Source: Paludibacteraceae bacterium (lineage in GTDB: Bacteria; Bacteroidota; Bacteroidia; Bacteroidales; Paludibacteraceae). From it: a stretch of DNA of 58,005 bases. The DNA lies in assembly GCA_024405895.1 (NCBI GenBank), contig JAKSNW010000011.1, positions 1 to 58,005 of the forward strand, written 5' to 3'. The first letter of the stretch is position 1. Every line of letters begins with the position of its first letter. Positions 1 to 40,127 of the stretch are shown here, in pieces. The position numbers and the translations under genes are program-made. The notes below the pieces were generated by a model. It made no database searches, was not told the DNA's origin, and saw only the letters and a program-made list of their open reading frames with translations.

Positions 1-158
1 CTACAAATGCCGACAACCAAAATCAAGTTGATTTTACGAATCTACAAATGCCGACTGCCAAAATCAAGTTGATTTTACGAATCTACAAATGCCGACTGCC
101 AAAATCAAATTGATTTTACGAGTCTACATTTGCAGATGTTAACGAACACTAATTTTTT
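1..158 (-). repeat. 41-bp tandem repeat array, locus 1
   Basis: Three 41-bp units (1-41, 42-82, 83-123) are followed by a 35-bp end box (124-158). The array may continue beyond the left edge. Read on the minus strand, in the direction of the upstream gene at 224-3127, each unit is a 6-base head, a 17-base palindrome (arms AAAATCA and TGATTTT around 3 variable bases) and an 18-base tail. The end box contains CTACATTTGCAGATGTTAAC (plus strand) and lies about 65 bp beyond the stop codon. The same module occurs at 14681-14880 and 39799-39996. Function unknown. Confidence 0.9.
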
Positions 159-183
159 GAGATAAAATTGGTCCGATTTATCC

Positions 184-214
184 CTCTTTGAACAAGAAAA
201 CGGACTTCAAAGAG
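184..214 (-). terminator. Hairpin after the oxidoreductase stop codon
   Basis: A perfect 9-bp stem (184-192 with 206-214, CTCTTTGAA/TTCAAAGAG) with a 13-base loop begins ten bases after the stop codon of the minus-strand gene. No immediate T-run follows, so it may be a weak terminator or an mRNA 3-prime stabiliser. It sits between the gene and the 41-bp repeat module. Confidence 0.45.
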
Positions 215-223
215 TGTCAAACC

Positions 224-3127
224 CTACTTCATGGCTGCCAACAGGGCTTCAACAGGGTGAACAGCTTTTCTGCCCGTGCCATCGAAGATCTGCTCGCGAC
301 AACTGGTGCCTGGTGCACAGACAATAGTGTTTTCATTTGACTGACGAACAGCAGGAAACAGAGTCTGCTCGCCAATAGCCATTGAGGTCTCGTAGTGCTT
401 TGTTTCGTAACCATACGAACCCGCCATACCGCAACAACCGGAAGGAATTACCTGAACGTGAAAGTTTTGCGGCAATGACAACATGCGACGCGACGGTTCC
501 ACCGAAGCCAACGACTTCTGGTGACAGTGGCCATGCAACAGTACCTCACATTTGGCATCAGTGAAATGGTTGGCTGTCAGTTCACCACGGTCAATCAGTT
601 GGCAAATAAACTCGTCGTACAACATCACATTGGCAGCCAACTCCTTGGCTTGCTGCTGCTCATGGTCTCTCAGCAGCTGTGGATATTCGTCTCGAAATGA
701 GAGAATTGTAGATGGTTCAAGTCCCACCAAAGGTGTTTCTTCAGAAATAATATCATGCAGCAATGCCACATTCTTTGAGGCAATCTTCTGTGCTTTCTTC
801 AACATGCCTTTAGACATGGCAGTGCGGCCGCTCTCCAAATGTTTCGGAATCCTGACTTCATAGCCAAGTTTCCACATCAGTTTCACAAACGCCTGACCTA
901 CTTCTACATCCATGAAATTGGTAAACTCATCGGCAAAGAGATAAACCACCTTGCCAGAATGAGAAGGTTGGTGACTCAGCCACGATTTCAGCGTCTGCTT
1001 AGCCATCTTCGGCAACTGACGTTTCTCTGTGAAATGGGTGCAACGGCGAATCAGTGAAGAAGTTACGGCGTTGCTTACCGCGAAATTATAAGCCCAAGGG
1101 AAAATACTACCCAAGCGTTGAACGTCAGGCAACGAGGCTATCAATCTGCTTGCCAACGGTGTGCCTTTCTTATCGAAGTGATGCTGAAGATATTCGGCCT
1201 TCAACTTTGTGATATTCACACCTGAAGGACATTCGCGACGACATGCCTTGCAAGAGAGACATTCCGACAGAACTTCCAGTATTTCAGGGTGATTGAAGCC
1301 TGCTTCCATATCGGTAATGAGCAGTTCACGCATCACATTAGCCCTTGCACGTGTGCTTTGCATCTCATCGCGTTTGGCACGGAACACTGGACACATGACA
1401 TCGCCAAACAGCTGAGACTTACGGCAGTCGCCAGCTCCAGTGCAGAGTTCTACTGCACGCATCCAGCCAGCACGGTCGGAGAAATCGAAATAGGTTGGAA
1501 TGTCAGCCAAACGTTTCGTTTCACGATAGCGTAACATGCTGTCCATCGGAGGAGTATCAACAATTTTTCCCTGATTGAACAACCCCTCAGGGTCAAACCA
1601 ACGCTTGACATCACACAATATATTATATACATCGTCACCAAGCATTAGAGGAATGAACTCACCACGAAGGCGACCATCGCCATGCTCTCCGCTCAGCGAA
1701 CCACGATATTTCTTAACAAGACGTGCAGTCTGCTCAGCCACAGCACGAAACGAACGAACACCTTCCTCACTCTTCATATTGATGACAGGACGGAGGTGAA
1801 GCTCACCTGTGCCGATGTGGGCATAATAGACACAACTTAACTGCAACTCTTCCAACATTTTCTGGAAATCTGCCATATAATCGGGCAGATATTTCGGTGC
1901 AACAGCCGTATCCTCAATCACTGGGGTCGGTTTAGCATCGCCCAACATATTACCCAGGATTCCCAAGCCAGCCTTACGCAGTGACCACACCTTGGTAATA
2001 TCTGAGCCATAGACTCTTGGATAGGCAAAGCCGATGCCTTCGTCGCGAAGATGTTTTTCAATAGCATCCGCCTTGGCATCGCGAGCCTCAACGGTCTCTT
2101 CGGCTATTTCGGCAATGAGAATAGCCTTCGGCTTGCCCTCCACAAAGAAGCGGTTGGCACGTTGAGACGGACTTTGTTCACTCAGTTCCAGAATCTTATC
2201 ATCCATCAGTTCGATAGCCACAGGATGATGTTCAAGCACCTTGAGGTTGCCTACGAAGGCCTCTTCCAAGGTGTTGCAATGAATGCAAATCAGCGCTTTC
2301 TCCTTTGGAGGCAATGGTTCTACGTTCAGCTTCAACTCTGTGACGAAAGCCAACGTGCCTTCACTACCTGCCAAAAGTTTGCAAAGATTGAAATTATTTG
2401 GATTTGATTGGTCGAAGTAGTTGTTATACATCAACAAATCAAGTGCATAGCCATTATTTCTACGTGTCAGTTCCGGTGTTGGAAAATTGTCTGCCAGGAG
2501 TTTCCTTGTGGCTTCGTCCTTCAATAAGTCTGTCAGATGACGATAGATATCGCCTTCCAAGCCAAGAAGTTGACACTTCTCATCCACTTGCTCTGGTGTC
2601 AAAGCAGAAAGCACCGTTTCAGAACCATCAGACAGAATGACATTGGCGCTGATGAGGTGTTCGCGAGTGCTGCCATAACGCAACGAATGGGTTCCGCAGG
2701 AGTTATTACCCACCATACCACCTACACAGCAACGGTTGGATGTGGAAGTCTCTGGTGCAAAGAACAATCCGTAAGGTTTCAATGCAAGATTCAACTCATC
2801 ACGCACCACACCAGGCTGTACTCTTACCCAATGTTCCTTCTCGTTGACCTCCAAGATTTTATTCATATACTTGGAGATATCCACCACGAGGCCTTTGCCG
2901 ACCACCTGACCAGCCAACGAAGTGCCTGCAGCACGTGGAATGACGTTGATATGATGTTGACGAGCAAAAGCCAGAATCTTACGGACATCGTCGGCATCCA
3001 AAGGTACGGCAACAGCCAACGGCATCTCGCGATAAGCCGACGCGTCGGTGGCATAGACAATCTTATGGAGCGAGTCGGTGTACAGTTCGCCCTTGATTGT
3101 CAGTTGTGAAAAGTCAATCTCAGCCAT
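224..3127 (-). CDS. FAD-binding and (Fe-S) oxidoreductase (GlcD-GlcF type fusion, YdiJ-like)
   Basis: This 967-aa protein fuses an FAD-linked 2-hydroxyacid dehydrogenase to a cysteine-rich iron-sulfur module. The N-terminal PCMH-type FAD domain (about 35-270) shows PRAAGTSLAGQ and GGMVGNNSCGTHSLRYG. The FAD-oxidase C domain follows (to about 545, with GEHGDGRLRGEF). A ferredoxin-like segment with CLSCKACRRECP lies near residue 635, and a CCG-type region with HGHCHQ (about 865) and GCCGMAGSYG (about 897) is near the end. The family oxidises D-lactate, glycolate or D-2-hydroxyglutarate-like acids and passes electrons to the respiratory chain. The substrate cannot be read from sequence. It is the last gene of a three-gene operon and overlaps the flippase stop by 8 bp. 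No signal peptide is seen, so it is probably cytoplasmic or membrane-associated. Confidence 0.85.
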   Translation of the reverse strand: MAEIDFSQLTIKGELYTDSLHKIVYATDASAYREMPLAVAVPLDADDVRKILAFARQHHINVIPRAAGTSLAGQVVGKGLVVDISKYMNKILEVNEKEHWVRVQPGVVRDELNLALKPYGLFFAPETSTSNRCCVGGMVGNNSCGTHSLRYGSTREHLISANVILSDGSETVLSALTPEQVDEKCQLLGLEGDIYRHLTDLLKDEATRKLLADNFPTPELTRRNNGYALDLLMYNNYFDQSNPNNFNLCKLLAGSEGTLAFVTELKLNVEPLPPKEKALICIHCNTLEEAFVGNLKVLEHHPVAIELMDDKILELSEQSPSQRANRFFVEGKPKAILIAEIAEETVEARDAKADAIEKHLRDEGIGFAYPRVYGSDITKVWSLRKAGLGILGNMLGDAKPTPVIEDTAVAPKYLPDYMADFQKMLEELQLSCVYYAHIGTGELHLRPVINMKSEEGVRSFRAVAEQTARLVKKYRGSLSGEHGDGRLRGEFIPLMLGDDVYNILCDVKRWFDPEGLFNQGKIVDTPPMDSMLRYRETKRLADIPTYFDFSDRAGWMRAVELCTGAGDCRKSQLFGDVMCPVFRAKRDEMQSTRARANVMRELLITDMEAGFNHPEILEVLSECLSCKACRRECPSGVNITKLKAEYLQHHFDKKGTPLASRLIASLPDVQRLGSIFPWAYNFAVSNAVTSSLIRRCTHFTEKRQLPKMAKQTLKSWLSHQPSHSGKVVYLFADEFTNFMDVEVGQAFVKLMWKLGYEVRIPKHLESGRTAMSKGMLKKAQKIASKNVALLHDIISEETPLVGLEPSTILSFRDEYPQLLRDHEQQQAKELAANVMLYDEFICQLIDRGELTANHFTDAKCEVLLHGHCHQKSLASVEPSRRMLSLPQNFHVQVIPSGCCGMAGSYGYETKHYETSMAIGEQTLFPAVRQSNENTIVCAPGTSCREQIFDGTGRKAVHPVEALLAAMK

Positions 3128-4601
3128 TTGATGAGTCTTTATGAACTAAAGATAGAATGATGTGTTTCAGTTGATTGAACACCTCGATTTTGAATACGAG
3201 CGAAAGGATGACGGTTGCTGCCAATGCCACGAGAATCTGAATGGCAACGACCAACCAGTGGGATGTCATACCCAAAAGGGTGACACAGAAAGTGATGGAA
3301 GCCACCACCACAGCCAAAGCCATAGGACGCACCATGTCTTTCAACTGCGACAAGATGCCATAGCCAACTATCCGTTTGGAGAAGAGTGCGTTGATTGGGA
3401 AACCTAACCAATAGTGAACCACGAAGGCCACGATAAGCCAGCGGATGCCACAAGTGATGCCTATGATAATGACTGGCACAAACAACACATATTTAATCAG
3501 TTCCGTACGGAGAAACAAATCCGAACGGCCTTTGACATTCAATATCAACTGATTGGTCAGGTGCATAACGATGGCAGCATAGGCAATGCAAATCATGGCG
3601 AAATAGAACGAGGCAGGTTGCCAAACCTCACCAAGGAGTGCCGGGATGAGGTCGTGCGACATGGAAACAAGCACACCGAACATCAGAAAAACGACATAGT
3701 AAAACGGTTGCATCATTTGTCGCAACGAACTTACGAAAAGCGAATCGTCGTGCTGTTTTTCCGAAAGCGCATTGTAGCCCACCTTATTAAGCATGGTGGA
3801 AAACGTATTGGAAAGGACACTCGTCAAAACGTCGGCTCGATCGTAATAACCCAATTCCTGCTGCGAATAATGTTTCGCAATAATATGTTTGTAGACATTG
3901 GCAAACAAAGTGGCAAGGGTGTTTACAATCATCAGCCTTGAGCCAAACCCAAACAAAGTGCGGAAACTGTCTTTGGAAAAATCGAATGTAGGACGCCATT
4001 CACCCACAATCCAATAACCAATGCTGACAATCACCTGTATAAGAACCTGTTTGCATACGATACTCCAGACGCCATAGCCTTGCAATGCCATGACCAAAGC
4101 GACCACAAAACCCAAGGTGACGGAGATGAAGTTGACGATGGTCTGAACGCGAAAGCGATATGCTTTGACCAATATGGTGCGCTGAATAATTGACAATGAG
4201 GCAATCGGGAGCACCAACATCAGGAGACGCAGGATTTTCTGCAACTCAGGCTGACCATAGAAGCGGGCAATGGCAGGAGCAGCAAAGAAGAGCAGCAAAT
4301 AGATGAAGACACTGAGCAGAATATTGAACCAGAAAACCGTGCTGTAATCGCGGTTGGTGCAGTCCTGCTTGCGAATCAACGCCTGTGTAAAGCCGCCGTC
4401 GATAAGCACTTGCGACACGGCAATAAAGATGGAGCAAGTGGCAACCAAGCCAAACTGCTCTGGCAAAAGTAAATGCGAGAGCACAAGCATGGAGGCGAGA
4501 TTCACAAATTGTGTGGAGAGAATCTCAACCAAGTTCCAGAAAAAACTATTTGCTAACTTGCTGCTCACGGTTTGCTTTTCACAAAAACAGCCGCAAGCCA
4601 T
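3120..4601 (-). CDS. Polysaccharide flippase (Wzx/MOP family)
   Basis: This integral membrane protein of up to 493 aa has about 12-14 hydrophobic segments. The N-terminus (KLANSFFWNLVEILSTQF) is typical of lipopolysaccharide or O-antigen flippases, which move undecaprenyl-linked glycans across the inner membrane. The ATG at 4601 gives an unusual Cys-rich start. A GTG at 4568 (VSSKLANSFF) matches the usual family N-terminus better and may be the true start. The gene lies 30 bp downstream of the nucleotide-sugar dehydrogenase and overlaps the downstream oxidoreductase by 8 bp, so the three are probably co-transcribed. No glycosyltransferases are adjacent, so the glycan it serves is unknown. Confidence 0.85.
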   Translation of the reverse strand: MACGCFCEKQTVSSKLANSFFWNLVEILSTQFVNLASMLVLSHLLLPEQFGLVATCSIFIAVSQVLIDGGFTQALIRKQDCTNRDYSTVFWFNILLSVFIYLLLFFAAPAIARFYGQPELQKILRLLMLVLPIASLSIIQRTILVKAYRFRVQTIVNFISVTLGFVVALVMALQGYGVWSIVCKQVLIQVIVSIGYWIVGEWRPTFDFSKDSFRTLFGFGSRLMIVNTLATLFANVYKHIIAKHYSQQELGYYDRADVLTSVLSNTFSTMLNKVGYNALSEKQHDDSLFVSSLRQMMQPFYYVVFLMFGVLVSMSHDLIPALLGEVWQPASFYFAMICIAYAAIVMHLTNQLILNVKGRSDLFLRTELIKYVLFVPVIIIGITCGIRWLIVAFVVHYWLGFPINALFSKRIVGYGILSQLKDMVRPMALAVVVASITFCVTLLGMTSHWLVVAIQILVALAATVILSLVFKIEVFNQLKHIILSLVHKDSSNG

Positions 4602-4631
4602 AGGCCTACAGCTGAATATCAGTTAGATAAA

Positions 4632-5933: not shown

Positions 5934-6022
5934 TGTTTCAAGAATTTTTCTATGTCCAAAGTGGTTGTAGCCAAAGAAATACCTATTATTTCAAAAGTGC
6001 ACACCACTCCATTTTAATTTTG

Positions 6023-6030
6023 CAAAGATA
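6023..6030 (-). promoter_or_regulatory. -7 promoter element of the dehydrogenase-flippase operon
   Basis: Read on the minus strand this is TATCTTTG, an exact match to the Bacteroidetes TAnnTTTG element. It would give a leader of about 80 bases. No clear -33 TTTG is seen at the expected distance. It lies in the 305-bp gap between the divergent dehydrogenase and transaldolase genes; the rest of that gap holds only the transaldolase promoter and leader. Confidence 0.6.
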
Positions 6031-6121
6031 CAATTTTTCTTTGGGTCGCGTATAATTATACCGCGTCAAATCCGCCCATTTTTTATTTTACACAATCATG
6101 AAAAACTGCAGCCAAAACCAC

Positions 6122-6151
6122 TTGCTATTCCAACGAAAAAACGTAACTTTG
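6122..6151 (+). promoter_or_regulatory. Promoter of the transaldolase gene
   Basis: A -7 element TAACTTTG is at 6144-6151 and TTG at 6122-6124, separated by 19 bp, matching the Bacteroidetes sigma-ABfr arrangement. Predicted transcription begins near 6157, giving about 80 bases of leader before the ATG at 6239. This excludes the more upstream in-frame start at 6098. Confidence 0.65.
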
Positions 6152-6238
6152 CAAGGTCAAATGAACTGTTCGTTCGCAGACAAGAACGCACACGTTCTGA
6201 CACATAATAACGTACAAACAATAAAAAGAAAAGATACA

Positions 6239-6895: not shown

Positions 6896-6983
6896 TCACC
6901 TGCAACAACAGGCGAGGTAAACTTCCAAGAACTTCCGTAGTCTAACACAGAGAACAACAAACAACAAAAGCAAACAAGAACTT

Positions 6984-7406: not shown

Positions 7407-7430
7407 CAGGAAATAAACAACACACTGAAT

Positions 7431-8572: not shown

Positions 8573-8620
8573 ATTGCAAAAAGACTATGGCATTCGACAC
8601 GAAAAAAGAAATAAAAATCG

Positions 8621-8628
8621 TACCTTTG
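8621..8628 (+). promoter_or_regulatory. -7 promoter element upstream of the HAD phosphatase
   Basis: TACCTTTG is an exact TAnnTTTG match, 35 bp before the ATG at 8663 and after the preceding terminator. The -33 element is not evident. Confidence 0.6.
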
Positions 8629-8662
8629 CATTCCTAACTATACACTCTTAAAACATAGGTCA

Positions 8663-13758: not shown

Positions 13759-14604
13759 ATGGAAACATTAATTTTAAAATCGCTGGGATACATCAAGCGT
13801 CTCCCAGCCACTTACGCACCTACTTTTTATTCAAAGGTGCAAGACCTCATCAGCGAGGTAGACAACGAGAGTTTAGTAGATAGTGTAGCCGTTCTCTGCG
13901 ACGGCATTACAGAACTAAACGCACAATTAAACAACAATCACATGGTCAATTCCGTGGAGGTTGTAGAAGCATTCGGTCAGTTGGAAAAACTGTGGTATGG
14001 CACGAAACATTTGTTCAAGGCATACAGCTACAGCACCAATCCATCAGACGTAGTGTTGGCCAAAAAGGCAATGGCTTTGCTGAACAGCATTTACACCGTG
14101 CCACTCAGACGAACCAACATCGCTGACCTGATGGTGTCGCTGTCGGAAACCATTGGCAAGGCATGGACCAAGCAAGAGTTGCAAGGCACGTTCATTGAGA
14201 GTTGGAAAACACAGCTGGACAATGCCGCCGACAACTACGCAGACCTCTATCAACGAAGTGTTGTCAACCGTGCTTCTATGGTTTATTTCACCGACCTGAG
14301 AGATAGTGTGTTTCAGTCGTTCAACTTTTTCTACTTGAATCTCTTCACCTACATCGGCAACACTGGCGACGTACAAATGTCGCAATTGTTCACCGAACTC
14401 AATCAGTTGATTACGATTTTCACTTCGATTCAAAAGGCACACATCACACGTGTCTACAATCGAAATCATGGCATCAGCACCCCTGACATAGAGTTGCCAA
14501 TGCCAGAAAATCCAACAGTAGAGAACGGCTCCGACGAACCAACTGAGGAGGCGAACGACTCCAACTTGTTGTCTGACGACGATGTTATGAACGGCACCGA
14601 GTAA
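13759..14604 (+). CDS. DUF6261-like conserved protein
   Basis: This 281-aa, mainly alpha-helical protein has no signal peptide, membrane segment or recognised catalytic motif. The layout (an N-terminal SLGYIKRLP segment, then long helices with periodic hydrophobics and an acidic, disordered tail from about 245) resembles the Bacteroides/Prevotella family DUF6261. The role is unknown and the family assignment is from memory. The C-terminus is very acidic (EEANDSNLLSDDDVMNGTE). It stands alone with its own AT-rich promoter region and a terminator, facing the convergent S41 peptidase operon across the second repeat locus. Confidence 0.6.
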   Translation: METLILKSLGYIKRLPATYAPTFYSKVQDLISEVDNESLVDSVAVLCDGITELNAQLNNNHMVNSVEVVEAFGQLEKLWYGTKHLFKAYSYSTNPSDVVLAKKAMALLNSIYTVPLRRTNIADLMVSLSETIGKAWTKQELQGTFIESWKTQLDNAADNYADLYQRSVVNRASMVYFTDLRDSVFQSFNFFYLNLFTYIGNTGDVQMSQLFTELNQLITIFTSIQKAHITRVYNRNHGISTPDIELPMPENPTVENGSDEPTEEANDSNLLSDDDVMNGTE

Positions 14605-14628: not shown

Positions 14629-14664
14629 GCCTGGAGAATCTACAGATTCTTCAGGCTTTTTTTT
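14629..14664 (+). terminator. Intrinsic terminator of the DUF6261-like gene
   Basis: GCCTGGAGAATC pairs with GATTCTTCAGGC (one mismatch or wobble), followed by eight T residues. Confidence 0.88.
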
Positions 14665-14680
14665 GTTTGATCATGCGAGT

Positions 14681-14880
14681 GCAGAAATGCCGACAACCAA
14701 AATCAAGCTGATTTTACGAATCTACAAATGCCGACTGCCAAAATCAAACTGATTTTACGAGTCTACAAATGCCGACAACCAAAATCATGTTGATTTTACG
14801 AGTCTACAAATGCCAACTGTCAAAATCAAGCTGATTTTCTGGGTCTACATTTGCAGACGTTAACGAACACTAATTTTTTA
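14681..14880 (-). repeat. 41-bp tandem repeat array, locus 2
   Basis: Four 41-bp units (14681-14721, 14722-14762, 14763-14803, 14804-14844) are followed by an end box (14845-14880). The end box is almost identical to locus 1 (one difference in the first 20 bases). All four units keep the perfect arms AAAATCA/TGATTTT while the 3 central bases vary. The end box lies about 50 bp beyond the stop of the minus-strand S41 peptidase gene, the same relation to the gene as at locus 1. A small GACC/GGTC hairpin lies between stop and box. Confidence 0.92.
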
Positions 14881-16850: not shown

Positions 16851-19184
16851 TTATCTGACCACCAGAATCTTAGTTACTGTTTTCTGCTTCTTATCCTTGG
16901 TGAAGCAGTGGGCAAAATAGACACCCGTAGCCACACGCTCGCCGTTCGGTTTGTTGCCGCTCCAAGTGGCTATGCTGCCGTTCGATTCGGTCTGATAGAC
17001 CATGTTGCCTGCTGCGTCGGTGATATAGACAAGTGTGTTGTCGGTGAGTCCCGTGATAGTGATAACGCCCGAATACTCAGGACGTACGGGGTTCGGGAAG
17101 GCATGTACATCAGAGAATACACGCTCCTCAGCCTCTTGGGCATCCGATTGGAACGAAATGATACCTTTGCTTGTGCCAAAGAATACTTCACCGGTCTTGT
17201 TGTTGATGCCTATGCACTGCACGTTGTCGTCCAAGAGCGGACTGTTTTCCGACGTAAAGTGATGTATTTCTTCCTTTCCGTCCTCCGACATGAGATAGAC
17301 GCCCGAGGTGGCAGTGGCTATCCACTTGCGGTTGGCAGCGTCCACCGTAATGGCATTAACTTGCACGTTGTCAAGTAGGTAGTCGGCATTATTGGTACCA
17401 TCGTTGCGACGGATAAGTACGCTCGTGGCTGTATAGTTCGGATTGAAGAGATTGTGCGGATTGGAGAGAAGAATCACGCCAGACGACGTGCCGAGCCAGA
17501 GGTCTCCGTTGCGGTCCTGTGTCATATCATAGATGAACACAGGCTGCAGTTTTTTGCCGTTCTGATTGAAGAACGAGGTGTAGGAGATGGTTCTGTCGTC
17601 GCCGATGTAATCAGGTGTGCCGTTGTCGTCAAAGACAAAGATACCTGTTTTGTCGCGTGGCAGAAGCACCACCTTGATATGTGGGTTATTCTTCAGAATG
17701 GCAATCTGTTGCAACGTAGACACGTGACGCAATGCCTGATATGGCAATCCGTGAATCTGTCCCTGAGGGTCGAGATATTTCACAGGATTAGGGGTCTCCA
17801 CATTGAGGAACCAGAGGTTGCCGTCGTCATCGTAAGTCAGTCCGTCGAGACGGTGATAAGCATAATATTCCTCCGTAGGTTTCTTCTCAGGATAGATGGT
17901 CTCGATGTTGCTGTTGTCGGCATTCCAAAGCTGATAGAATGTGTTGTCTCTGAACTCATAGAGTCCGTAACCGTATGAAGCCACGTAGAAATGAGAGTCG
18001 TCGGCAGGATCAATAGCCACATCCACAAGGTCTTCACACTTATGTCCAGTGGCATTCACGAGTTCTGTGTTGGTGATATTATGCCATTCGTTGTTCTCAA
18101 ACACCATGACGTGTCCAGGACGGAAATACTGCAAGGCAAAACGTCCACCTGGCACAGCGATAAGCTTCTCGCCAGCCGATTTGATTCGCCATGAGAGATT
18201 GGTGATAGGGCCTTCTGGCATCATGAAGTAATAGGTGCCATGGTCGTCAGCCACACGGCCAACGCCCTCACCTTCAGCAGCCAACCAATAGCAGTGACGT
18301 TCGCTATCATGCACCACCATCTTAGGCATATTGAACACAAACTCGTCGCGTTGCTGTCCGTTGATATGAATGACCTTGCCTGGCTGCGACAACATCACAT
18401 AGCCGTCGTTGGCATCGAGTTGGGTAATCTGAGTGTAGACAGAGTCTTGCCATTGCTGACCGTTGAAGACATCGACAACGCCATCGTCATGCAAGAGGTA
18501 ACGATTTGAGCCACTGCACACCATCTTATAGAGATTCTGTCCGTGTACCCCTTCCAAAGTCTGCCAATTGGCAAAGTTGGCAGGGTTGGAGTTGTCCAAT
18601 CCAATGGTCAGTATTTTTTCCGATGTCACGGCATAGAGATTCGTGCCGTCGGTTGCCAATGATGTCACATTCACGAAGTTGGCATCATCGCCAATGTAAT
18701 AGGTGCCTTTCACTTCCACCTTCTGGATATCCAAGGCTACGATGCCGAATCCGCAGGCAAGATAAGCCGTCTTGCCGATGACAAGGATATCGTTGATACT
18801 CTTGTCGGCTGTCATGCTCTTGCGCATGATGTCAGGCAGGTTGTCTATGCGTCCGTCCTCGTAGAGGAAGTCGATGTTGGCATTCTCATAAGCCACTATC
18901 AACACGCCCAAGGCATCGTTGAAGGCAATGCGTGACACGGTGTTGTCGCTCAAGCCCGTAACCTTGGAAAAGGTAGTGATGACGAAGTCGCGTTTCAACA
19001 CCGAATAGAGTGCACCGTCGCTGATGGCATAGACATATTCTTTGCTTTGTGTCACGGCATTGGTGGCGGAGTAGGCAAAGTGTGTACGCCAACTGTGCAT
19101 GGCCAATCGCTGTGCAGAGAGCGAGAGGGTCAACAGCAAAAGCATGCAGACGAGTGCAAAGCGATGATGTTTCTGCAGTATCAT
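16851..19184 (-). CDS. porZ: PorZ-like T9SS component (beta-propellers plus CTD)
   Basis: This 777-aa protein has a signal peptide (about 1-24, SLSAQ). Two-component-regulator-type beta-propeller repeats follow (for example YVYAISDGALYSV, DRNGDLWLGTSSGVILL, RKWIATATSGVYLM). A C-terminal T9SS/FlgD-like domain (about 695-777) starts VHAFPNPVRPEYSGVITITG and ends KTVTKILVVR. Architecture, length and the N-terminal WRTHFAYSATNAV segment match PorZ. In Porphyromonas gingivalis PorZ is a surface part of the T9SS attachment complex that delivers A-LPS to the sortase PorU. The ATG at 19184 gives a clean signal peptide. It follows rdgB by 4 bp, a pairing I believe is common in Bacteroidales. T9SS cargo genes lie nearby (20366-24919, 25392-26204). 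Confidence 0.78.
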   Translation of the reverse strand: MILQKHHRFALVCMLLLLTLSLSAQRLAMHSWRTHFAYSATNAVTQSKEYVYAISDGALYSVLKRDFVITTFSKVTGLSDNTVSRIAFNDALGVLIVAYENANIDFLYEDGRIDNLPDIMRKSMTADKSINDILVIGKTAYLACGFGIVALDIQKVEVKGTYYIGDDANFVNVTSLATDGTNLYAVTSEKILTIGLDNSNPANFANWQTLEGVHGQNLYKMVCSGSNRYLLHDDGVVDVFNGQQWQDSVYTQITQLDANDGYVMLSQPGKVIHINGQQRDEFVFNMPKMVVHDSERHCYWLAAEGEGVGRVADDHGTYYFMMPEGPITNLSWRIKSAGEKLIAVPGGRFALQYFRPGHVMVFENNEWHNITNTELVNATGHKCEDLVDVAIDPADDSHFYVASYGYGLYEFRDNTFYQLWNADNSNIETIYPEKKPTEEYYAYHRLDGLTYDDDGNLWFLNVETPNPVKYLDPQGQIHGLPYQALRHVSTLQQIAILKNNPHIKVVLLPRDKTGIFVFDDNGTPDYIGDDRTISYTSFFNQNGKKLQPVFIYDMTQDRNGDLWLGTSSGVILLSNPHNLFNPNYTATSVLIRRNDGTNNADYLLDNVQVNAITVDAANRKWIATATSGVYLMSEDGKEEIHHFTSENSPLLDDNVQCIGINNKTGEVFFGTSKGIISFQSDAQEAEERVFSDVHAFPNPVRPEYSGVITITGLTDNTLVYITDAAGNMVYQTESNGSIATWSGNKPNGERVATGVYFAHCFTKDKKQKTVTKILVVR

Positions 19185-19188
19185 TTTG

Positions 19189-19767
19189 TTATTGGTTGCG
19201 AAGGAAGGCAATGAGTTTTTCCACAGCACGACCACGGTGAGAGATACGGTTCTTCTCCTCGGTGGTCAGTTCGGCAAAGCTTTTGTCGTAGCCCTCAGGA
19301 CGGAATATCGGATCGTAGCCGAAACCTTCGGTGCCATGATGTTCGGTCAGGATTTCGCCATCCACGATGCCTTCAAAGAAGTGGGTTTCGCCATTTCTGA
19401 TAAGGGCAATCACAGTGCGGAAGCGAGCCTTGCGGTTTGTCTTTCCATCCATCTCACGAAGCATCTTACGGCAGTTGTCCTCGAAGGAGCAATGCTCGCC
19501 AGCATAACGTGCTGAATAGACGCCAGGTGCACCATTGAGAGCCTCAACCTCAAGGCCCGTATCGTCGGCGAAACAGTCGTAGCCATAGTGTTCCTTCACG
19601 AAACTGGCTTTCTGAAAAGCATTCTCCTGCAGTTGTGTACCTGTCTCAGGAATCTCTTCTTGGCAGCCGATATCGGTCAAGCCTTTTACCTCGTAGAGAC
19701 CCTTGAGCATCTCTTGTATTTCCTGAAGTTTATGTTTGTTGTGGGTAGCAATGATAAGCGTTTCCAT
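19189..19767 (-). CDS. rdgB: XTP/dITP diphosphatase (RdgB/HAM1 family)
   Basis: This 192-aa house-cleaning nucleotide pyrophosphatase hydrolyses dITP, XTP and ITP to monophosphates. The N-terminal substrate motif is LIIATHNKHKLQEI (SHNxxK-like), and the metal-binding acidic residues are in DCFADDTGLEVEALNGAPGVYSARYAG. The C-terminus contains FGYDPIFRPEG and SHRGRAVEKL. The start ATG at 19767 gives the standard length. A -7 element TATCTTTG lies about 30 bp upstream. It heads the four-gene minus-strand operon rdgB-porZ-DUF3316-S41. Confidence 0.93.
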   Translation of the reverse strand: METLIIATHNKHKLQEIQEMLKGLYEVKGLTDIGCQEEIPETGTQLQENAFQKASFVKEHYGYDCFADDTGLEVEALNGAPGVYSARYAGEHCSFEDNCRKMLREMDGKTNRKARFRTVIALIRNGETHFFEGIVDGEILTEHHGTEGFGYDPIFRPEGYDKSFAELTTEEKNRISHRGRAVEKLIAFLRNQ

Positions 19768-26910: not shown

Positions 26911-26991
26911 CTGATTCGTGCTGAGAGATAATATATCGGCAAGCGAAAATCTGCACAAATTCCGCAATGCAGTTGTTTGGCGAAAAAAGCG

Positions 26992-26999
26992 TACCTTTG
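26992..26999 (+). promoter_or_regulatory. -7 promoter element of the YgiQ-type gene
   Basis: TACCTTTG lies 18 bp before the ATG at 27018, implying a leader of only about 12 bases. It rules out the upstream in-frame start at 26967. Confidence 0.65.
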
Positions 27000-27017
27000 C
27001 ACATCACTTTCAGCACT

Positions 27018-33160: not shown

Positions 33161-33210
33161 TTTTCGTTGTTTATGTTTTTGGTTGTGGTGTATCTTGTCT
33201 GTTTTTTCCT

Positions 33211-33218: not shown

Positions 33219-33222
33219 CACC

Positions 33223-33525
33223 ATGAAGCGTAAGGGACCTCTTCGTATTGACTCTCAACTCATCGACCGCACACTTGATGCTGTCTATGGACCTGCGTTG
33301 AAGCTGCGCATGCAGACTTATCGCCTGACCAATGAGATTTGGCCAAAGGTGATGGGGGCTTTGTTGTCATACACCGCCGATCCCCAATTCTCCGACGGAG
33401 TATTCTCTGTCACCATTCTGTCTGCGCCTCTGCGTCAGAATCTGTCGATGGAGAAAGAGACACTTATCAAGCGATTGAATGAGGAACTAAATGAGGATTT
33501 GGTCAAACAAATTATTCTTCGCTAA
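33223..33525 (+). CDS. DUF721 family protein
   Basis: This 100-aa protein has the typical DUF721 core: IWPKVMGALLSYTADPQF, followed by VFSVTILSAPLRQNLSMEKETLIKRLNEEL and a final VKQIILR. The family is often found near recF/gyrB or other replication and repair genes; its role is not well defined. The usual family start corresponds to the ATG at 33223. An in-frame upstream extension (to 33106) overlaps guaD on the other strand and the promoter, and is rejected. The convergent tamB gene ends 24 bp downstream. Confidence 0.85.
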   Translation: MKRKGPLRIDSQLIDRTLDAVYGPALKLRMQTYRLTNEIWPKVMGALLSYTADPQFSDGVFSVTILSAPLRQNLSMEKETLIKRLNEELNEDLVKQIILR

Positions 33526-33549
33526 CTCCTAATCACTCCCAGCCCTTTT

Positions 33550-36500
33550 TCATTCACTCTTTCTTGCAGCAGCCCGCTGTTCACGTTTGGCTTTTCTACG
33601 TTCGCGATTAGCCTTACGTTCGTTGCGGTTTTCCTGTATCGTTGCACGCCATTCCTCACGCAATCCCTTGGCAGAGCTGAAGTTGTCGCGATAAACCAGA
33701 CCTACACCCTGTGTGGTCGAACTCTCCTTGAACTCACGGTAATCATTGGTGTGGGTGTATGCCTTGGCACTCAGTTTACCCGATTTGACGATTTTATACT
33801 CAACATCAAAGTCACCGATGAAATTATTGGAGGTAGAAGTCGAGAGGTTGTCGTCGCGATAACCGACATTGCCGTTTAAGGTAATGCGGCTATTCGGAGT
33901 ATAAAGAATCTGCAATTCATACTCCATGCGACGTTCCTGACCCTCTCCCGACGAACGGAGGTTGACGCCGAAATTCCAGTTTTCAAACAGTTGCGATGCC
34001 CAGTTGTTCAGTTGCGATGAGAGTGATGAGCTCACTACAGACAACAGTTCATTCTGGCCGAATACCTGCGCCATGCCCGTGGTAGAGTTTACTGGTTGAA
34101 AGCGGCCAAGTACCAACAGGTAGATAATCTGTCGACGCATTTCCTCGTCGGAGTGAATCACACTCTTGAGGGCAGAGTTCAGTTCCTCGTCAGAGTTTGG
34201 CAGATGGATATCAAACGACAAATCCGGTTGAAGCAGATTGCCCGACATATTCAATCGACACTGCACAGGCACAGTAGGACGTCCAACATTGCTGAGAATA
34301 TCCGACGTGAGGATATCAGTGAGTGAAGCATTGATCTGATAGTAGGCATCAATGTTAACGGTAGGACTTGTAGGGTCGCCAGTCCACGCAATCGTACCAC
34401 CTGGCTGCACCTTAAACTCTCTACGCATAGCATTCTGGAAAGTGAAGTTGTAAGAACCTTGCAGGATGTTGCAGTTACCGAACATTTTGAATTCTTCTGT
34501 CAACGGGTCAAGTTCGAGACGAACAGCACCTTCACCAGCAGCCTTGATGATATCGCCTGATTTAGAATCGAGAATCAAGTAGAGGTCTGCTTCAGGAGTC
34601 ACGTTAACCAAGAGGTTCAGACCAATTTGTGCGGTCTGAGGCTTGATACGTTTGGCAATCAGTTCGTTAATCTGCGCAGAGTCTGGCTGTTGCGAACGGT
34701 CGATAAACGTAATGAATGAGTCATCCTCTGCCAATACCGCACCATCCACTGGAATATAGACTGCAGTATTTGGTTTGGTAGTCATGTCACAGTTGATGTT
34801 CACACGCTTTTCATCACCGCTGATTGAGACATCACCCGACGCATATCCCTTGCCGTAGAACAAGGCATCAGGTGCCGACTGGAGGTCGAATGCCCTCATC
34901 TTGTCGCAACTCAACAGCACATTGTACTTCATTCCCTGGAAATGGCCATCGTGGGTGAGACGTCCGTTCAGTTTGCCCTTGTTGCCGTCATCATCGAAGA
35001 TATCAATATTCTCAAACAGCACAGCCGTAGGGGTAAGTTCTATTGTGTCGCTGAAGTGATATTTCGTGCCGAGATAGGTTACGCCCACCTGACCATCTTG
35101 CACATAGGCCTTGGCAGTAACAGACACACCCTTCTTGGCTTTGCCAAAGATATGCACATCGCCGTCGGCACTACCACTGATATTATCCAGGATGCCTTCG
35201 GTGAAGTGGTTGATAAAGCCAAGGTTGATGCCATCGGCATGACCAATAATATCAATGGTATCATTGGTAAAGCCGAAGAAACCAGACAACGAAGCCAACG
35301 GAGAGGTTCGATTGCCGAAGACATCGCCACCGAAGTTGATACGTTTGTTTTCCAAGTCAACATCTGTCTGAGCCTCAACGTGTCCATATTCAGCACCATT
35401 GAACTTGAAGTTCTGCGAAGAGACGGAAGCATCAATCAATGGAGTTGACAGCAAGCCACCTATCTGTGCCGTTCCCGTAATGTCACCGCCCAAGGTGATG
35501 GCTTTCAACGGCACGATGGAGAAGATATAGTCAAGACTGATGTTCTGCATATCCACCGACAAAATGTCGGAAGGCGATTTTGAGATAGTGCCGTCAATAT
35601 TAAGATGTTGGTCGCGGCTCGTAAGGTTGAAGTTGTCAATATCAATTTTCCACGGTGTAAAGTGGATGAACGATCTTCCAATCTCAAACGGCACATTGTT
35701 CATGAAAATCTGTGTAGGCAGAATATCAGTATTGAGACAGAGGGTGTCATTGCGTTTGTAGAGATGGGCTTTGGTTACGAACTCACCTGCCGTAATAGTG
35801 TCCGACACGAGGTTTCGCCACAACACATTGGCATTGATGACATCGTCTGCCATGTTGACATCCAGATTCAATGCCAACGTATCCTCAGGAATCTTCACAT
35901 TGGTCGAAAGAATCAGACGGAGATTTTCGTTGGTGTTATAAGCACGCAAGGTAGCATCGCTGATATGTCGAACGCCATTGGTAAGATGCTGAAGGTCAAT
36001 CTGTGCATTGATGCTGTGAGTCTCGTCGCTATAGAAGCCACCGATAACAGTAGGCTCTGTGGTATACCATGGAATATCCATCACCTTACAGAGTTGTTCC
36101 GTCGACTGCAGCTCGATATAGTATTTCAAATCGTTGGATATGCCAGGTTTTTCCTTATAGTCAAGCAGTGGCATATACTTGCTCACAAATGCCAACAGGT
36201 GGTTTGTCAACGAAGCAATGGTGTAACGGCCATAGAGCATGCCGTTTATTTGTGGCGATTTGACAGAGAGGAAGTTCTCACGCGTTGTCTCATTGGTTTT
36301 CGAGCGAATACACAGACTGTCAAGGAAGTAGCTGCCATTATTATTTACCAGGATGGAATCTATGCGTACGAATCCGTTCAGCGATTCAATATGTTCGCCA
36401 TGCAGGTCGGCAGAAATCAGCAGTGAGGCATCGAAGTCAGGATATTTGTCGGTCAATCGCATCTTATGAGGCGAGAAATCGTCAATTCGTGCTGTAAACT

Positions 36501-38040
36501 GATAACTGTGAGCAGGTTGTCCAAGGTCAATCTTGCCATCGAACAGTAAGGCTCCGTTAGGGTCATCTGTTTTAACGTGACCATCGAAACTTTTGTTGGC
36601 ATACTCACCGTCAAGTTTGATGTTATGATGGGTATAACCCTTGTAGGTAATTGCATCCACTATACCGTCAACAGCCAGAGTCATAGGCGACTGCTGCGAT
36701 GCATTCAGTTCTATGTCAACGTCAAAGGCAGTATGACCGAAGTCATTGTTCACCAACGGTTGGAGATTCAGCGATTCCGTTTTGAAACAGCCATCTAGCG
36801 ATACGGCTTTGAAATGGTTGGTTACGCGAACGCCAACATCGGTTTTCAACTTGCCCAAGTTGGTTGCAAGGTCGCCAGCCAGTTTCATATTGTCAATCCT
36901 GCCGTTGATGTCGCCCACATAGGTGGCATTGCCAATAGAGTGAAGCTTGGCAGGGAGAATGAATGGCTGCTGACGTAGATTAGCCACGAGGTCCTGAATA
37001 CCAGCCATGTTGAAGTTCAACGCACGAATATGGCTCTCAGTGGTCAGACTGTCAAGATCGAAGAGATGATGCACAGCCACTTCACCAAAGAATGAGAGGT
37101 CGTTGCCATAACGTAAGGCAATGGTATCGAGGATGATATTGTCAGGCGTACCAGAATATTCTGCCAACAGATAAATAGGATGGCGGAAACAGGAAAGCTT
37201 CGGACTGAGCGGTTTGAATACCGACAAATTGAAATCTTTGGCTTCCATTTTGCCCGACAGCTGAAGGTTGGCAATATTTTTGGCTATATCCTTGAGCGAA
37301 TCATAGGCAAAGTTCACGTCGGAAAGGGCAAGTTCGGAATTGGCAACACGAAGTTTCAGCATCGGAATCTCACAATGCTTGTCCGTCATGTGGAAAGCCA
37401 TCATGAGATTGTCGATGTTCATGCCCGAATGTTCCTTGCAGCTGAAGCGTTCGATGTTGGCGGCATAGCGATGGTCTGCCAACGTGTCGATGGAAAACTT
37501 CGTGTTGAGTTGTTCCACACGAATGTTGTTCGGGGCGAATCCTTCGTACACATTTGTGTCGCAAAGGTTCTTGAACGACAAGGTGCCGTTGAGTATCTCT
37601 ACGTTCGATATTTCGAACTTCAGTTTGTTGTTTTTGGGTTTATCGCGCTTGAAATAGTCGACCAAGAACTGCAAATTGGTGGTTTTGTCGCCATTTTTTT
37701 GCAGTTTGAACACCGGATTCTCTATTCGCAGCGCATTTATCACAAGCTCACGATTGAGCAGTGATTTGGGCTGAAAACTACATCTTGCACTTGACACGAA
37801 AGCCAACGTATCTCCACTTAAATCAGAAAGATAGAGATAATCCAACTCTATGTCGTTAGGGATACGATAAGCCACGTGGCCGACACTAACCTCTGTGCCC
37901 CACTCCTTAGATAGCGACGTAGCAATCCTTTCCACCAAATAGTTCTGCACTTTGCTGGTACTCAGCAAGATGGCAGCACATATTGGAAGAAAAGCAATAA
38001 TAGCCACGATGACTGACACTATCTTCAGTGCTTTTTTCAT
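33550..38040 (-). CDS. tamB: Translocation/assembly module protein TamB
   Basis: This 1496-aa protein is anchored by one N-terminal transmembrane helix (about 5-27, VSVIVAIIAFLPICAAILL). A long AsmA/TamB-type beta-helical body spans the periplasm, and the C-terminal DUF490/TamB domain (about 1000-1400) shows GSYNFTFQNAMRREFKVQPGG, TSPTVNIDAYYQINASLTDIL and VQCRLNMSGNLLQPDLSFDI. The tail is highly basic (NRERRKAKREQRAAARKSE). The family moves lipids or assembles outer-membrane proteins. The ATG at 38040 is chosen because the upstream extension covers the promoter. It diverges from tsaD. Confidence 0.9.
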   Translation of the reverse strand: MKKALKIVSVIVAIIAFLPICAAILLSTSKVQNYLVERIATSLSKEWGTEVSVGHVAYRIPNDIELDYLYLSDLSGDTLAFVSSARCSFQPKSLLNRELVINALRIENPVFKLQKNGDKTTNLQFLVDYFKRDKPKNNKLKFEISNVEILNGTLSFKNLCDTNVYEGFAPNNIRVEQLNTKFSIDTLADHRYAANIERFSCKEHSGMNIDNLMMAFHMTDKHCEIPMLKLRVANSELALSDVNFAYDSLKDIAKNIANLQLSGKMEAKDFNLSVFKPLSPKLSCFRHPIYLLAEYSGTPDNIILDTIALRYGNDLSFFGEVAVHHLFDLDSLTTESHIRALNFNMAGIQDLVANLRQQPFILPAKLHSIGNATYVGDINGRIDNMKLAGDLATNLGKLKTDVGVRVTNHFKAVSLDGCFKTESLNLQPLVNNDFGHTAFDVDIELNASQQSPMTLAVDGIVDAITYKGYTHHNIKLDGEYANKSFDGHVKTDDPNGALLFDGKIDLGQPAHSYQFTARIDDFSPHKMRLTDKYPDFDASLLISADLHGEHIESLNGFVRIDSILVNNNGSYFLDSLCIRSKTNETTRENFLSVKSPQINGMLYGRYTIASLTNHLLAFVSKYMPLLDYKEKPGISNDLKYYIELQSTEQLCKVMDIPWYTTEPTVIGGFYSDETHSINAQIDLQHLTNGVRHISDATLRAYNTNENLRLILSTNVKIPEDTLALNLDVNMADDVINANVLWRNLVSDTITAGEFVTKAHLYKRNDTLCLNTDILPTQIFMNNVPFEIGRSFIHFTPWKIDIDNFNLTSRDQHLNIDGTISKSPSDILSVDMQNISLDYIFSIVPLKAITLGGDITGTAQIGGLLSTPLIDASVSSQNFKFNGAEYGHVEAQTDVDLENKRINFGGDVFGNRTSPLASLSGFFGFTNDTIDIIGHADGINLGFINHFTEGILDNISGSADGDVHIFGKAKKGVSVTAKAYVQDGQVGVTYLGTKYHFSDTIELTPTAVLFENIDIFDDDGNKGKLNGRLTHDGHFQGMKYNVLLSCDKMRAFDLQSAPDALFYGKGYASGDVSISGDEKRVNINCDMTTKPNTAVYIPVDGAVLAEDDSFITFIDRSQQPDSAQINELIAKRIKPQTAQIGLNLLVNVTPEADLYLILDSKSGDIIKAAGEGAVRLELDPLTEEFKMFGNCNILQGSYNFTFQNAMRREFKVQPGGTIAWTGDPTSPTVNIDAYYQINASLTDILTSDILSNVGRPTVPVQCRLNMSGNLLQPDLSFDIHLPNSDEELNSALKSVIHSDEEMRRQIIYLLVLGRFQPVNSTTGMAQVFGQNELLSVVSSSLSSQLNNWASQLFENWNFGVNLRSSGEGQERRMEYELQILYTPNSRITLNGNVGYRDDNLSTSTSNNFIGDFDVEYKIVKSGKLSAKAYTHTNDYREFKESSTTQGVGLVYRDNFSSAKGLREEWRATIQENRNERKANRERRKAKREQRAAARKSE

Positions 38041-38047
38041 ACCTTTG
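38040..38047 (+). promoter_or_regulatory. Candidate -7 element for tsaD, overlapping the tamB start codon
   Basis: Plus-strand TACCTTTG begins at the first base of the tamB start codon (read in reverse). It would give tsaD a leader of about 80 bases. No good -33 element is seen. Confidence 0.4.
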
Positions 38048-38060
38048 CGCTTTAATCGGA

Positions 38061-38068
38061 CAAAGGTA
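38061..38068 (-). promoter_or_regulatory. -7 promoter element of tamB
   Basis: Minus-strand TACCTTTG lies 20 bp before the tamB ATG, implying a leader of roughly 14 bases. Confidence 0.6.
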
Positions 38069-38131
38069 CAATTTTTCTTTGTAATAAGGTGGTCCGATGA
38101 CAAAAACAATATAATTTTCTTTGGTTTTTCT

Positions 38132-39148
38132 ATGGCAACAATCTTAGGTATCGAATCATCATGCGATGACACCTCTGCTGCAATCATCAGCGACGGCAAA
38201 CTTTTGTCGAATGTTACAGCCAGTCAGGCTGTTCATGAAATGTATGGCGGCGTGGTGCCTGAATTGGCCTCAAGGGCTCATCAGCAGAATATCATCCCTG
38301 TTGTGGATGCTGCTCTGAAAAAAGCCGGAATCAACCGCGAAGACGTTGATGCTGTAGCCTTTACACGTGGTCCTGGTTTGTTGGGTTCGTTGCTCGTAGG
38401 CATATCGTTTGCCAAAGGTTTTGCATTGGCAAGCCGTATTCCTTTGATTGATGTCAACCACCTTCAGGCACATATCATGGCCCATTTTGTCCGCACCCCA
38501 GACGACACCCGTCCGCTGCCAGAGTTCCCGTTCCTCTGCCTGTTGGTTTCTGGCGGAAACTCACAACTGGTGCTTGTGAAAGGCTACAACCAGATGGAAA
38601 TTATCGGTCAGACCATCGACGATGCCGCAGGCGAAGCATTCGACAAGTGTGCCAAGGTGATGGGACTGCCCTACCCTGGCGGCCCTGTAATCAACAAGTT
38701 AGGCAACGAAGGAAACCCCGAGAGATTCAAGTTTGCAAAACCGAATATCGCTGGCTACGACTACAGTTTCAGCGGTTTGAAGACTTCGTTCCTCTATTTC
38801 CTTCGCGACGAGATGAAGGAAAATCCTAATTTCATCGAGGAGAACAAGAACGACTTGTGTGCTTCATTGCAACACACTGTAGTAGAGATTCTGATGCACA
38901 AATTGAACAAGGCAGTCAAGGATTTTAAAATCAAACGCATTGCCGTAGCCGGAGGTGTCTCTGCCAACTCTGCCCTACGTGATGCCTTCATTGCCTATGG
39001 CGAGAAGCACCACTGTGAGGTCTACATTCCACCTTTTGCCTACACCACCGATAATGCTGCCATGGTGGCTATGGTAGGTTATTACAAAATGCAAGACAAA
39101 GAGTTCTGCTCGCCAGATCTTCCACCATACGCACGCGTAACAATTTAA
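38132..39148 (+). CDS. tsaD: tRNA N6-adenosine threonylcarbamoyltransferase TsaD
   Basis: This 338-aa ASKHA-fold enzyme transfers the threonylcarbamoyl group to A37 of ANN-decoding tRNAs, working with TsaB, TsaE and TsaC/C2. Motifs are ILGIESSCDDTSAAI (N-terminus), the metal-binding HLQAHIMAH, TRGPGLLGSLLVG, LLVSGGNSQLV, SFSGLKTSF and AVAGGVSANSALR. The family start corresponds to the ATG at 38132; the longer in-frame extension overlaps tamB. The exosortase-like gene follows 10 bp after the stop and is probably co-transcribed. Confidence 0.96.
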   Translation: MATILGIESSCDDTSAAIISDGKLLSNVTASQAVHEMYGGVVPELASRAHQQNIIPVVDAALKKAGINREDVDAVAFTRGPGLLGSLLVGISFAKGFALASRIPLIDVNHLQAHIMAHFVRTPDDTRPLPEFPFLCLLVSGGNSQLVLVKGYNQMEIIGQTIDDAAGEAFDKCAKVMGLPYPGGPVINKLGNEGNPERFKFAKPNIAGYDYSFSGLKTSFLYFLRDEMKENPNFIEENKNDLCASLQHTVVEILMHKLNKAVKDFKIKRIAVAGGVSANSALRDAFIAYGEKHHCEVYIPPFAYTTDNAAMVAMVGYYKMQDKEFCSPDLPPYARVTI

Positions 39149-39158
39149 TCTTCTGCCG

Positions 39159-39749
39159 ATGCAGTTGTTCAAGAACCCGACATACCAACGTCTCTTCGAC
39201 GCGCAGATTGACACCACGTTGTTTATCTTTGCCGTCCTCTTCGGCCATGCGCTTTGGCATATTATCTTTCCAGGACTGACAATGGAGAGCACAGAGGTAT
39301 TGGTTTTCAACCGATTCGACATCACACCGTACACCTATCACTTCCAACTCTGGTTGGCAGACCAACAGTATTTCCTGTCGCACCTTATCAATGACAATGT
39401 GATACAAAATGGTCTTGACATATTCATTCCAGGCCACATGGGCAGCCAGATGGCTTGGGGATGCACGGGTATCAAACAGGCAATGATTTTCACATTGGCA
39501 ATCGGAATCTCCCGTGGTGCACATCGCAACAAATGGTGGTTTATTCCCATTGGATTAGTTGTGTTACACGTAGTTAACCTTATTCGTGTAACTGCATTGT
39601 TCTTTATCATCACCAACAACTCAGAATTGTTTCCACTTTTTCACAATCACATTCTGAAGTACGCCTACTATGTCATTATCTTCCTCATTTGGCTGATATG
39701 GCAGTTCCGCTTCAATCCGAAGTTCAAAATCTCGGCCGTCAACAACTAA
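39159..39749 (+). CDS. Exosortase/archaeosortase family protein
   Basis: This 196-aa multi-spanning membrane protein has about five to six hydrophobic helices. It carries the catalytic triad positions of the exosortase family: Cys in WGCTGIKQ (C102), Arg in VVNLIRV (R143) and His in FHNHILKY (H162 or H164). These enzymes are thought to cleave C-terminal sorting signals made of a short motif, a hydrophobic helix and a basic tail. The subtype (XrtF/N/X/Y) cannot be fixed. It follows tsaD by 10 bp. A plausible substrate is the 122-aa protein at 19983-20351. The third 41-bp repeat locus lies just downstream. Confidence 0.8.
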   Translation: MQLFKNPTYQRLFDAQIDTTLFIFAVLFGHALWHIIFPGLTMESTEVLVFNRFDITPYTYHFQLWLADQQYFLSHLINDNVIQNGLDIFIPGHMGSQMAWGCTGIKQAMIFTLAIGISRGAHRNKWWFIPIGLVVLHVVNLIRVTALFFIITNNSELFPLFHNHILKYAYYVIIFLIWLIWQFRFNPKFKISAVNN

Positions 39750-39759
39750 ACACCACACT

Positions 39760-39799
39760 AAAGGGTTCAACGACGTTTTTTGGGAGCAAAACAAGCCCT
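39760..39799 (+). other. Weak hairpin between the exosortase gene and repeat locus 3
   Basis: AGGGTT can pair with AGCCCT (one wobble) across a loop of about 28 bases, just downstream of the stop codon and before the repeat end box. Hairpins in the same position are seen at loci 1 and 2. Confidence 0.3.
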
Positions 39800-39996
39800 A
39801 AAATTAATAGTTGTTAACATCTGCAAATGTAGACTCGTATTTCAATTTTGGAAATGACAGTCTACATTTCTCGACTCCCATTTTAATTTTGGAAATAGCA
39901 GTCTACATTTCTCGACTCCCATTTTAATTTTGGAAATGAGAGTCCACATTTCTCGACCCCCATTTCAATTTTTGAAATGGCAGTCTACATTTCTCA
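39799..39996 (+). repeat. 41-bp tandem repeat array, locus 3 (diverged version)
   Basis: The end box (39799-39832) contains the same 20-base core as locus 1 in reverse complement. Four 41-bp units follow (39833-39873, 39874-39914, 39915-39955, 39956-39996). Each has the same 6+17+18 layout as loci 1 and 2, but the palindrome arms are ATTTCAA/TTGAAAT-like: perfect in the last unit, with 1 mismatch or a wobble in the others. The tail keeps CAGTC..CATTT. The array follows the plus-strand exosortase gene, so orientation relative to the gene is again the same. The remainder of the 39750-40187 gap holds the terminator at 40128-40166. Confidence 0.9.
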
Positions 39997-40127
39997 AATC
40001 AGGAAAACAAGAGAAAAAAAGGCTTTCTGAGATCGTAAACAGAAGCTCTGACAGTAAGATTCGGCAATGATTTTTGCCCCAAAAGAACCCGGGTACAAAA
40101 ATAGCAAGAAAGAAATTTGCGGTAGGT

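Follow-up and report, generated by a model that had tools for sequence, protein, structure and literature searches.

A probable MITE-like element with internal 41-bp tandem units, dispersed in the genome of a Paludibacteraceae bacterium

Dispersed repeats that enclose a tandem array have been described from Porphyromonas gingivalis, a member of the Bacteroidales. MITE464/PgRS is a dispersed miniature inverted-repeat transposable element (MITE) with internal 41-nt tandem direct repeats and some 10-20 copies per genome, and BrickBuilt is an intergenic minisatellite of 23-nt units, variable in number, lying between a distinct leader and tail (PMC4596501). The same paper gives 19 BrickBuilt copies in ATCC 33277, predicted terminators around 10 of these 19, predicted stem-loops, filled and empty sites between strains and outward promoter activity measured in E. 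coli; BrickBuilt is present in P. gingivalis and P. gulae, both repeats have IS5-like terminal inverted repeats (TIRs), and with default BLAST neither repeat matched outside P. gingivalis, and BrickBuilt homologues are reported from P. gulae (PMC4596501). A further point of comparison is provided by the repetitive extragenic palindromic (REP) sequences and their BIME and REPIN forms, many short extragenic palindromes occurring together with Y1 transposases (REP-associated tyrosine transposases, RAYT, or TnpA-REP) in the same genome (PMC6006769). Here we consider tandem arrays of 41-bp units in a 58,005-nt contig from a Paludibacteraceae bacterium (JAKSNW010000011.1 of assembly GCA_024405895.1); this stretch, referred to below as the window, is the entire contig C3 (C3:1-58005) of an assembly of 1.72 Mb in 39 contigs that is 78% complete. 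The arrays are best read, with a probability of about 0.75, as parts of a lineage-specific, dispersed, non-coding MITE-like element with an internal minisatellite, the sequence family of which is new whilst its plan is of an already known kind; judged by analogy with the published descriptions, the element is in plan like PgRS and BrickBuilt.

A preliminary description of the window had recognised arrays of period 41 at three loci, and Tandem Repeats Finder places them at 1-128, 14685-14849 and 39832-39995 with scores of 228, 239 and 251. The near-invariant 20-base core that it reported beside each array, CTACATTTGCAGAYGTTAAC, matches at all three loci with zero mismatches. What did not survive was the restriction of the module to these loci, since a genome-wide blastn search with two full elements as queries gave 22 places in the assembly. 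Contig ends hold 14 of these, which is of practical consequence in that 14 of the 78 contig ends of the assembly fall in the element; the other eight places are internal to contigs, with neighbours on both sides and arrays of three to seven units. The right end is present at 15 places, so that there are at least 15 elements, as a single element split over two contigs may account for two of the contig-end places. In the element's own direction the order is a left end (approximately TGTTTTTCTCTCTTGATTTTGCAAATCTACAAATG), then the 41-bp units, then a right end (approximately GAGTCTACATTTGTAGATGTTAACGAACACTAATTTT). Every right-end match adjoins an array, except that at C4e and C28e the contig stops within the adjoining unit; these two places hold no full unit, leaving units at 20 of the 22. 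Conservation drops sharply beyond both ends (assessed on the 15 right ends and on 12 of the 15 left-bearing places, the left ends of C3c, C14e and C30e not being anchored), although the limits of the left end vary among copies. An 83-aa open reading frame (ORF) at C6b, judged spurious, is the sole overlap with a nearest flanking gene, and the 22 places are otherwise outside such genes and without coding capacity. A conserved left end, a number of 41-bp units and a conserved right end are thus found together, as a single block, in many intergenic regions that are otherwise unrelated. The three arrays of the window are copies of this one element, which looks like a spreading one rather than a built-in part of the genes beside it. 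Two other identities were set aside: a CRISPR array, because the entire 41-bp unit including its linker repeats and there are no unlike spacers, and a described structured RNA, Rfam at gathering scores having given only five tRNA matches in the window.

A model of the right end gave no matches among 357 other genomes of the family, and an RNA model (R1, sequence only) run against 393 genomes of the order matched, besides its own genome, only a pair of genomes from a single genus of a different family, once each, with E of about 7e-4, near the chance level for 393 genomes, and with no array visible by eye; both searches used the stricter filters of Infernal and weak relatives may therefore be missed. 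What this pair has in common is a single right-box-like stretch, ACATCTGCAAATGTAGA (L131:1480-1580 and L132:1480-1580), with no array, and it is probably due to chance. The core pattern, with up to two mismatches allowed, was found 14 times in its own genome among 200 genomes of the family and once each in five of the other 199; since the reversed control pattern gave eight single matches, these five are taken as chance. An exact right-end pattern had no match in genome-contig and viral-contig collections, which may omit the source genome or near ones, and a blastn search of plasmids and phages with one type A element gave none. Sites without the element could be found in a genome of a different species of the same genus (G017), in which all three fully syntenic sites are empty. 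At the site of locus 3 the order tsaD, exosortase gene, AraC-type gene and next gene is kept, with a gap of 18 nt as against 438 nt here and no array, and the sites of C6a and C6b show terminator-like hairpins by eye, no array and matches of at most 14 nt. Two further sites are only partly comparable and also lack an array: at that of C14a the right-hand neighbour gene is missing too, and at that of C35a only about 150 nt follow the gene before the G017 contig stops. In Bacteroidales bacterium S28M_St_metabat_51, which encodes an S41 protein of 78% identity, there is no tandem array in 11 kb, and a different gene adjoins the S41 gene. Amongst the options offered by the preliminary description, a mobile REP-like element came nearest to these data, namely 22 places, 0 of 357 other family genomes and 3 of 3 syntenic sites empty.

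The likeness to PgRS is one of plan and unit length. The PgRS TIRs (GAGACTGTTGCA/TGCAACGGTCTC) are matched in our elements no better than by chance (4-6 mismatches of 12, shuffles giving about 4), and the same is true of the IS5-type TIR of BrickBuilt (GAGACCTTTGCA), the unit of which, at 23 nt, also differs from the 41 bp found here. The IS5-family TIR that marks PgRS or BrickBuilt proper (GAGAC..TTGCA) is therefore not recognisable in our elements. A literature search found no paper describing this element, judged by title and start of abstract, with most subscription papers lying outside the search. The element adds to the Bacteroidales another dispersed repeat built on 41-bp tandem units, in the manner known from P. 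gingivalis and with no likeness to it in TIRs. It is also a clean system in which to study how elements of this design are mobilised and for what reason they come to lie behind terminators.

Each unit consists of a 31-base imperfect dyad, with outer arms GACT...AGTC and a further pair of inner arms, and a 10-base linker on which a second dyad is centred; the spacing from unit to unit is exactly 41 throughout. The preliminary description had divided the unit into 6, 17 and 18 bases, and the division into dyad and linker is a fuller one. Among 72 units (73 less one false unit at C14e) three types were distinguished: A (35 units) has inner arms AAAATCA/TGATTTT, perfect in 33 of the 35 and, as had been noted, in each of the seven at loci 1 and 2; B (25 units) has inner arms ATTT.../...AAAT, the form ATTTCAA/TTGAAAT being perfect, as also reported, in one of the four units of locus 3; and C (12 units) combines a left arm resembling that of A with a right arm resembling that of B. 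Between types A and B, pairs 9-11 have changed in both arms but still form (22 of 22 distinct units of A; 22, 22 and 21 of 22 of B), whilst in type C pairs 9-13 are unpaired in all 11 distinct units. The coordinated change in both arms had been held to imply selection for pairing, for which it proves weak evidence, as the change is the split between types A and B, and type C is conserved but unpaired. Counts of pairing are themselves mixed. Three measures lie above shuffles, each reached by 0 of 500 (cells paired 69.8% vs 64.5%, cells changed on both sides 85 vs 63.5, covariation 0.205 vs 0.128), but the number of pairs changed on both sides (6, shuffle mean 8.9) and of further pair types (13 vs 16.2) was reached by 500 of 500 shuffles, and covariation after sliding by one column was still 0.164. 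Compensatory change as proof of pairing was therefore rejected on the mixed count, the one-column slide and the unpaired type C. The number of variable inner-arm columns is 1 of 14 in A, 5 of 14 in B and 1 of 14 in C, as compared to 12, 13 and 9 of 17 in the rest of the dyad, and because the arms of type C, although unpaired, vary as little as those of type A, what is kept in the arms is sequence rather than symmetry. Units of type A are as alike between arrays (0.898) as within them (0.894), and those of type C nearly so (0.849 and 0.859), as is expected if whole arrays spread; type B, less alike between arrays (0.821) than within (0.884), fits this less well.

Of the 30 gene ends that face an element 25 are 3' ends (binomial p 3e-4), a count made after two corrections of neighbours: at C14e the left neighbour is a plus-strand gene by reading of the flank, replacing a minus-strand 272-aa ORF, and at C6b the right neighbour is a 193-aa ORF, replacing the 83-aa ORF on the same strand. 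Without the change at C14e the total would be 24 of 30 and the count on the left 10 of 15. An expectation of one half is fair since the gaps of at least 100 nt in the whole window comprise 4 convergent, 4 divergent and 7 tandem ones. Five of the eight contig-internal places lie between convergent genes, three between genes of the same direction and none between divergent genes; in the same-direction cases the upstream gene faces the right box, with the exception of C24s, where a gene read as a Der-type GTPase starts beside the right end (names of neighbours outside the window, such as thymidine kinase, Der-type GTPase, FtsK and CysS, come from reading the sequence and not from database matches). 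The fixed orientation to the upstream gene that had been claimed is suggestive only. The right end does face a 3' end in 14 of 15 cases, but the left end does so in 11 of 15 and the contrast is not significant (Fisher p 0.33); moreover, because loci 2 and 3 sit between convergent genes, either orientation would follow a gene there, and the pattern is thus partly built in. A predicted intrinsic terminator lies between stop codon and element at 19 of the 25 gene 3' ends, against 4.4% (22/500) when the flanks are shuffled and 7 of 25 when the opposite strand is read. The six ends without one include the right-hand genes of all three window loci, which is why the module had looked like a 3' untranslated region (UTR). 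As a general role, a 3' UTR or termination device does not agree with a terminator coming first at 19 ends, though it may still apply to those three right-hand genes. Nor does the hairpin that had been described after the stop codon stand out, the stretches from stop codon to box at loci 1, 2 and 3 folding barely better than shuffles (z -1.69, -1.25 and -0.99; equalled or bettered by 14, 23 and 37 of 200 shuffles).

The left end carries a motif that fits TTG-N17-22-TAnnTTTG, a promoter consensus of Bacteroidota type. It points outward in 7 of 12 segments, with a spacing of N19/20, compared to 0.35% of shuffled segments, and these seven copies are homologous and hence not independent; in the whole window it occurs eight times on both strands. 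A rightward motif is present in none of the 22 element segments, and the right end is without such a box pair. The motif is promoter-like and may point to outward promoter activity. Elsewhere in the window a short direct repeat, AAAAAnCGTACCTTTGCA, is found at 8613-8630 and 26984-27001, and this resembles the Bacteroidota promoter box, TAnnTTTG.

If the arrays belong to a MITE-like element, a transposase working in trans at the ends or the dyads would copy the block to new places, the length of the array would change by unequal exchange, and copies would survive where they do least harm, that is behind the terminators of often convergent genes; less probably, the left end could also act as an outward promoter. 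At the edges of the array there is a 16-base inverted repeat, ATCTACAAATGTmGAC, with one mismatch at the consensus level, as good as which none of 2000 shuffles was, and it could be a fitting transposase site. By eye, the right end of C4a resembles a recombinant of unit and box. Several observations weigh on the other side. Over their outermost 10 bases the two ends show no significant likeness (159 of 2000 shuffles); the split into inner and outer parts was chosen after the alignment had been seen. No target-site duplication was identified when the flanks were viewed by eye, with their T-rich ends and variable left limits. PF01609 had no match in the assembly, PF01609 and PF01797 being the only transposase families searched. 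No array-less stretch with the same ends was found by blastn in the genome, and thus no autonomous parent; as the genome is 78% complete, the parent may sit in the missing part. The empty sites come from a different species of the genus, and movement within a species was not observed. Finally, in each type the inner arms are more conserved than the remaining dyad, hinting at a constraint beyond mere copying. A more elaborate version, which we hold doubtful, would have a mobile element of exchangeable unit cassettes (A, B and C, the last an A/B-like hybrid) homing to sites behind terminators, with an outward Bacteroidota-type promoter in its left end producing antisense RNA against the convergent neighbour or driving the next gene, and with the conserved, not necessarily paired arms serving as recognition sites of a protein that moves or organises the element.

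In a rather unlikely alternative the arrays are clustered binding sites of a dimeric DNA-binding protein, nucleoid or regulatory. A period of 41 bp is about four helical turns, so that the dyads would lie on one face of the helix, and the exactness of all the spacings would suit such an arrangement, as would the near-invariance of the inner arms of type A relative to the rest of their dyad and the TCTACA/TGTAGA arms that flank two bases in several right boxes (those of C6b, C14a and C27s among them). Type C is difficult to accommodate, as its arms are conserved but asymmetric, and 12 of the 72 units would consequently have lost a symmetric site; no protein was identified as a candidate, and none was searched for. 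We consider it very improbable that the arrays instead function in RNA, as processing, stabilising or terminating hairpins at the 3' ends of the genes to their right. When the arrays of loci 2 and 3 were folded in the sense of the right-hand gene they did better than shuffles (z -3.69 and -3.65), but so did the other strand at locus 3 (z -4.73) and, to a lesser degree, at locus 2 (z -1.54), and dyad arrays tend to fold on both strands. The strong 3'-facing bias of right-hand neighbours agrees with a role in RNA, as does the fact that, of the 14 right-hand gaps, the shortest (28-69 nt) are those at the four genes for which no terminator is predicted; against this have to be set the terminators that precede most elements, the orthologous exosortase gene of G017, which is without the module, and the lack, by eye, of a U-run after the unit hairpins.

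It is also conceivable, although quite unlikely, that the element is a palindrome-associated one and owes its movement to either of the two IS200/RAYT-like Y1 transposases encoded in the genome. The assembly has two PF01797 genes, both over the NCBIfam cut-off for IS200/IS605 transposases and one also matching REP_Tyr_transpos below cut-off, and the unlike outer ends, the lack of a visible target duplication and the many dyads would fit single-strand transposition. Each Y1 gene is, however, ringed by its own, different palindromic repeats, so that REP sequences of the local Y1 genes were rejected; with six of the 22 elements as queries there was no significant match near the Y1 genes (best E 0.35), and the variable limits of the left end are ill-suited to a fixed cleavage site. 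Comparison with the REP/RAYT systems comes to the same, in that the palindromes flanking the Y1 genes here are not the 41-bp units, and type A units have, by eye, no constant GTAG. One Y1 gene, encoding a 152-aa transposase of IS200/IS605 type (NCBIfam), lies beside 344-bp direct repeats and palindromes such as GATGCC..GGCATC in a REPtron-like cluster (L097:1027-2534, that is C5 at about 19.5-21.0 kb), and the second gene, of 151 aa, has GC-rich palindromic repeats on both sides (CGCCCTGAAAGGGC and others) that are unlike those of the first (L098:1265-2857, C1 at about 8.3-9.9 kb).

The features of the three window loci are collected in the table; as contig C3 begins inside locus 1, the array there is cut off.

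Features of the element and of neighbouring predicted terminators at the three loci of the window
Feature	Position	Strand	Remark
Locus 1 array: linker remnant and three type A units (31-mers at 12, 53, 94)	1..124	+	truncated by contig start
Locus 1 right end box, core at 124-143	117..157	+	
Locus 2 left end, degenerate	14667..14691	+	
Locus 2 array: four type A units (31-mers at 14692, 14733, 14774, 14815)	14692..14845	+	
Locus 2 right end box, core at 14845-14864	14840..14879	+	
Predicted intrinsic terminator of left-hand gene 13759-14604, ahead of element	14629..14665	+	
Locus 3 array: four type B units (31-mers ending 39862, 39903, 39944, 39985 on + strand)	39832..39985	-	
Locus 3 right end box, core at 39813-39832	39799..39838	-	
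Predicted intrinsic terminator of AraC-type gene 40188-41138, ahead of element	40128..40166	-	

Two genes in the vicinity of the loci may be mentioned. The gene at 39159-39749, which adjoins tsaD, encodes an exosortase/archaeosortase family protein (TIGR04178 over cut-off), and its gene order is kept in G017. Two genes from the S41 peptidase, at 16851-19235, there is a PorZ-like protein (PF21544) with a sub-threshold match to a type IX secretion C-terminal domain.

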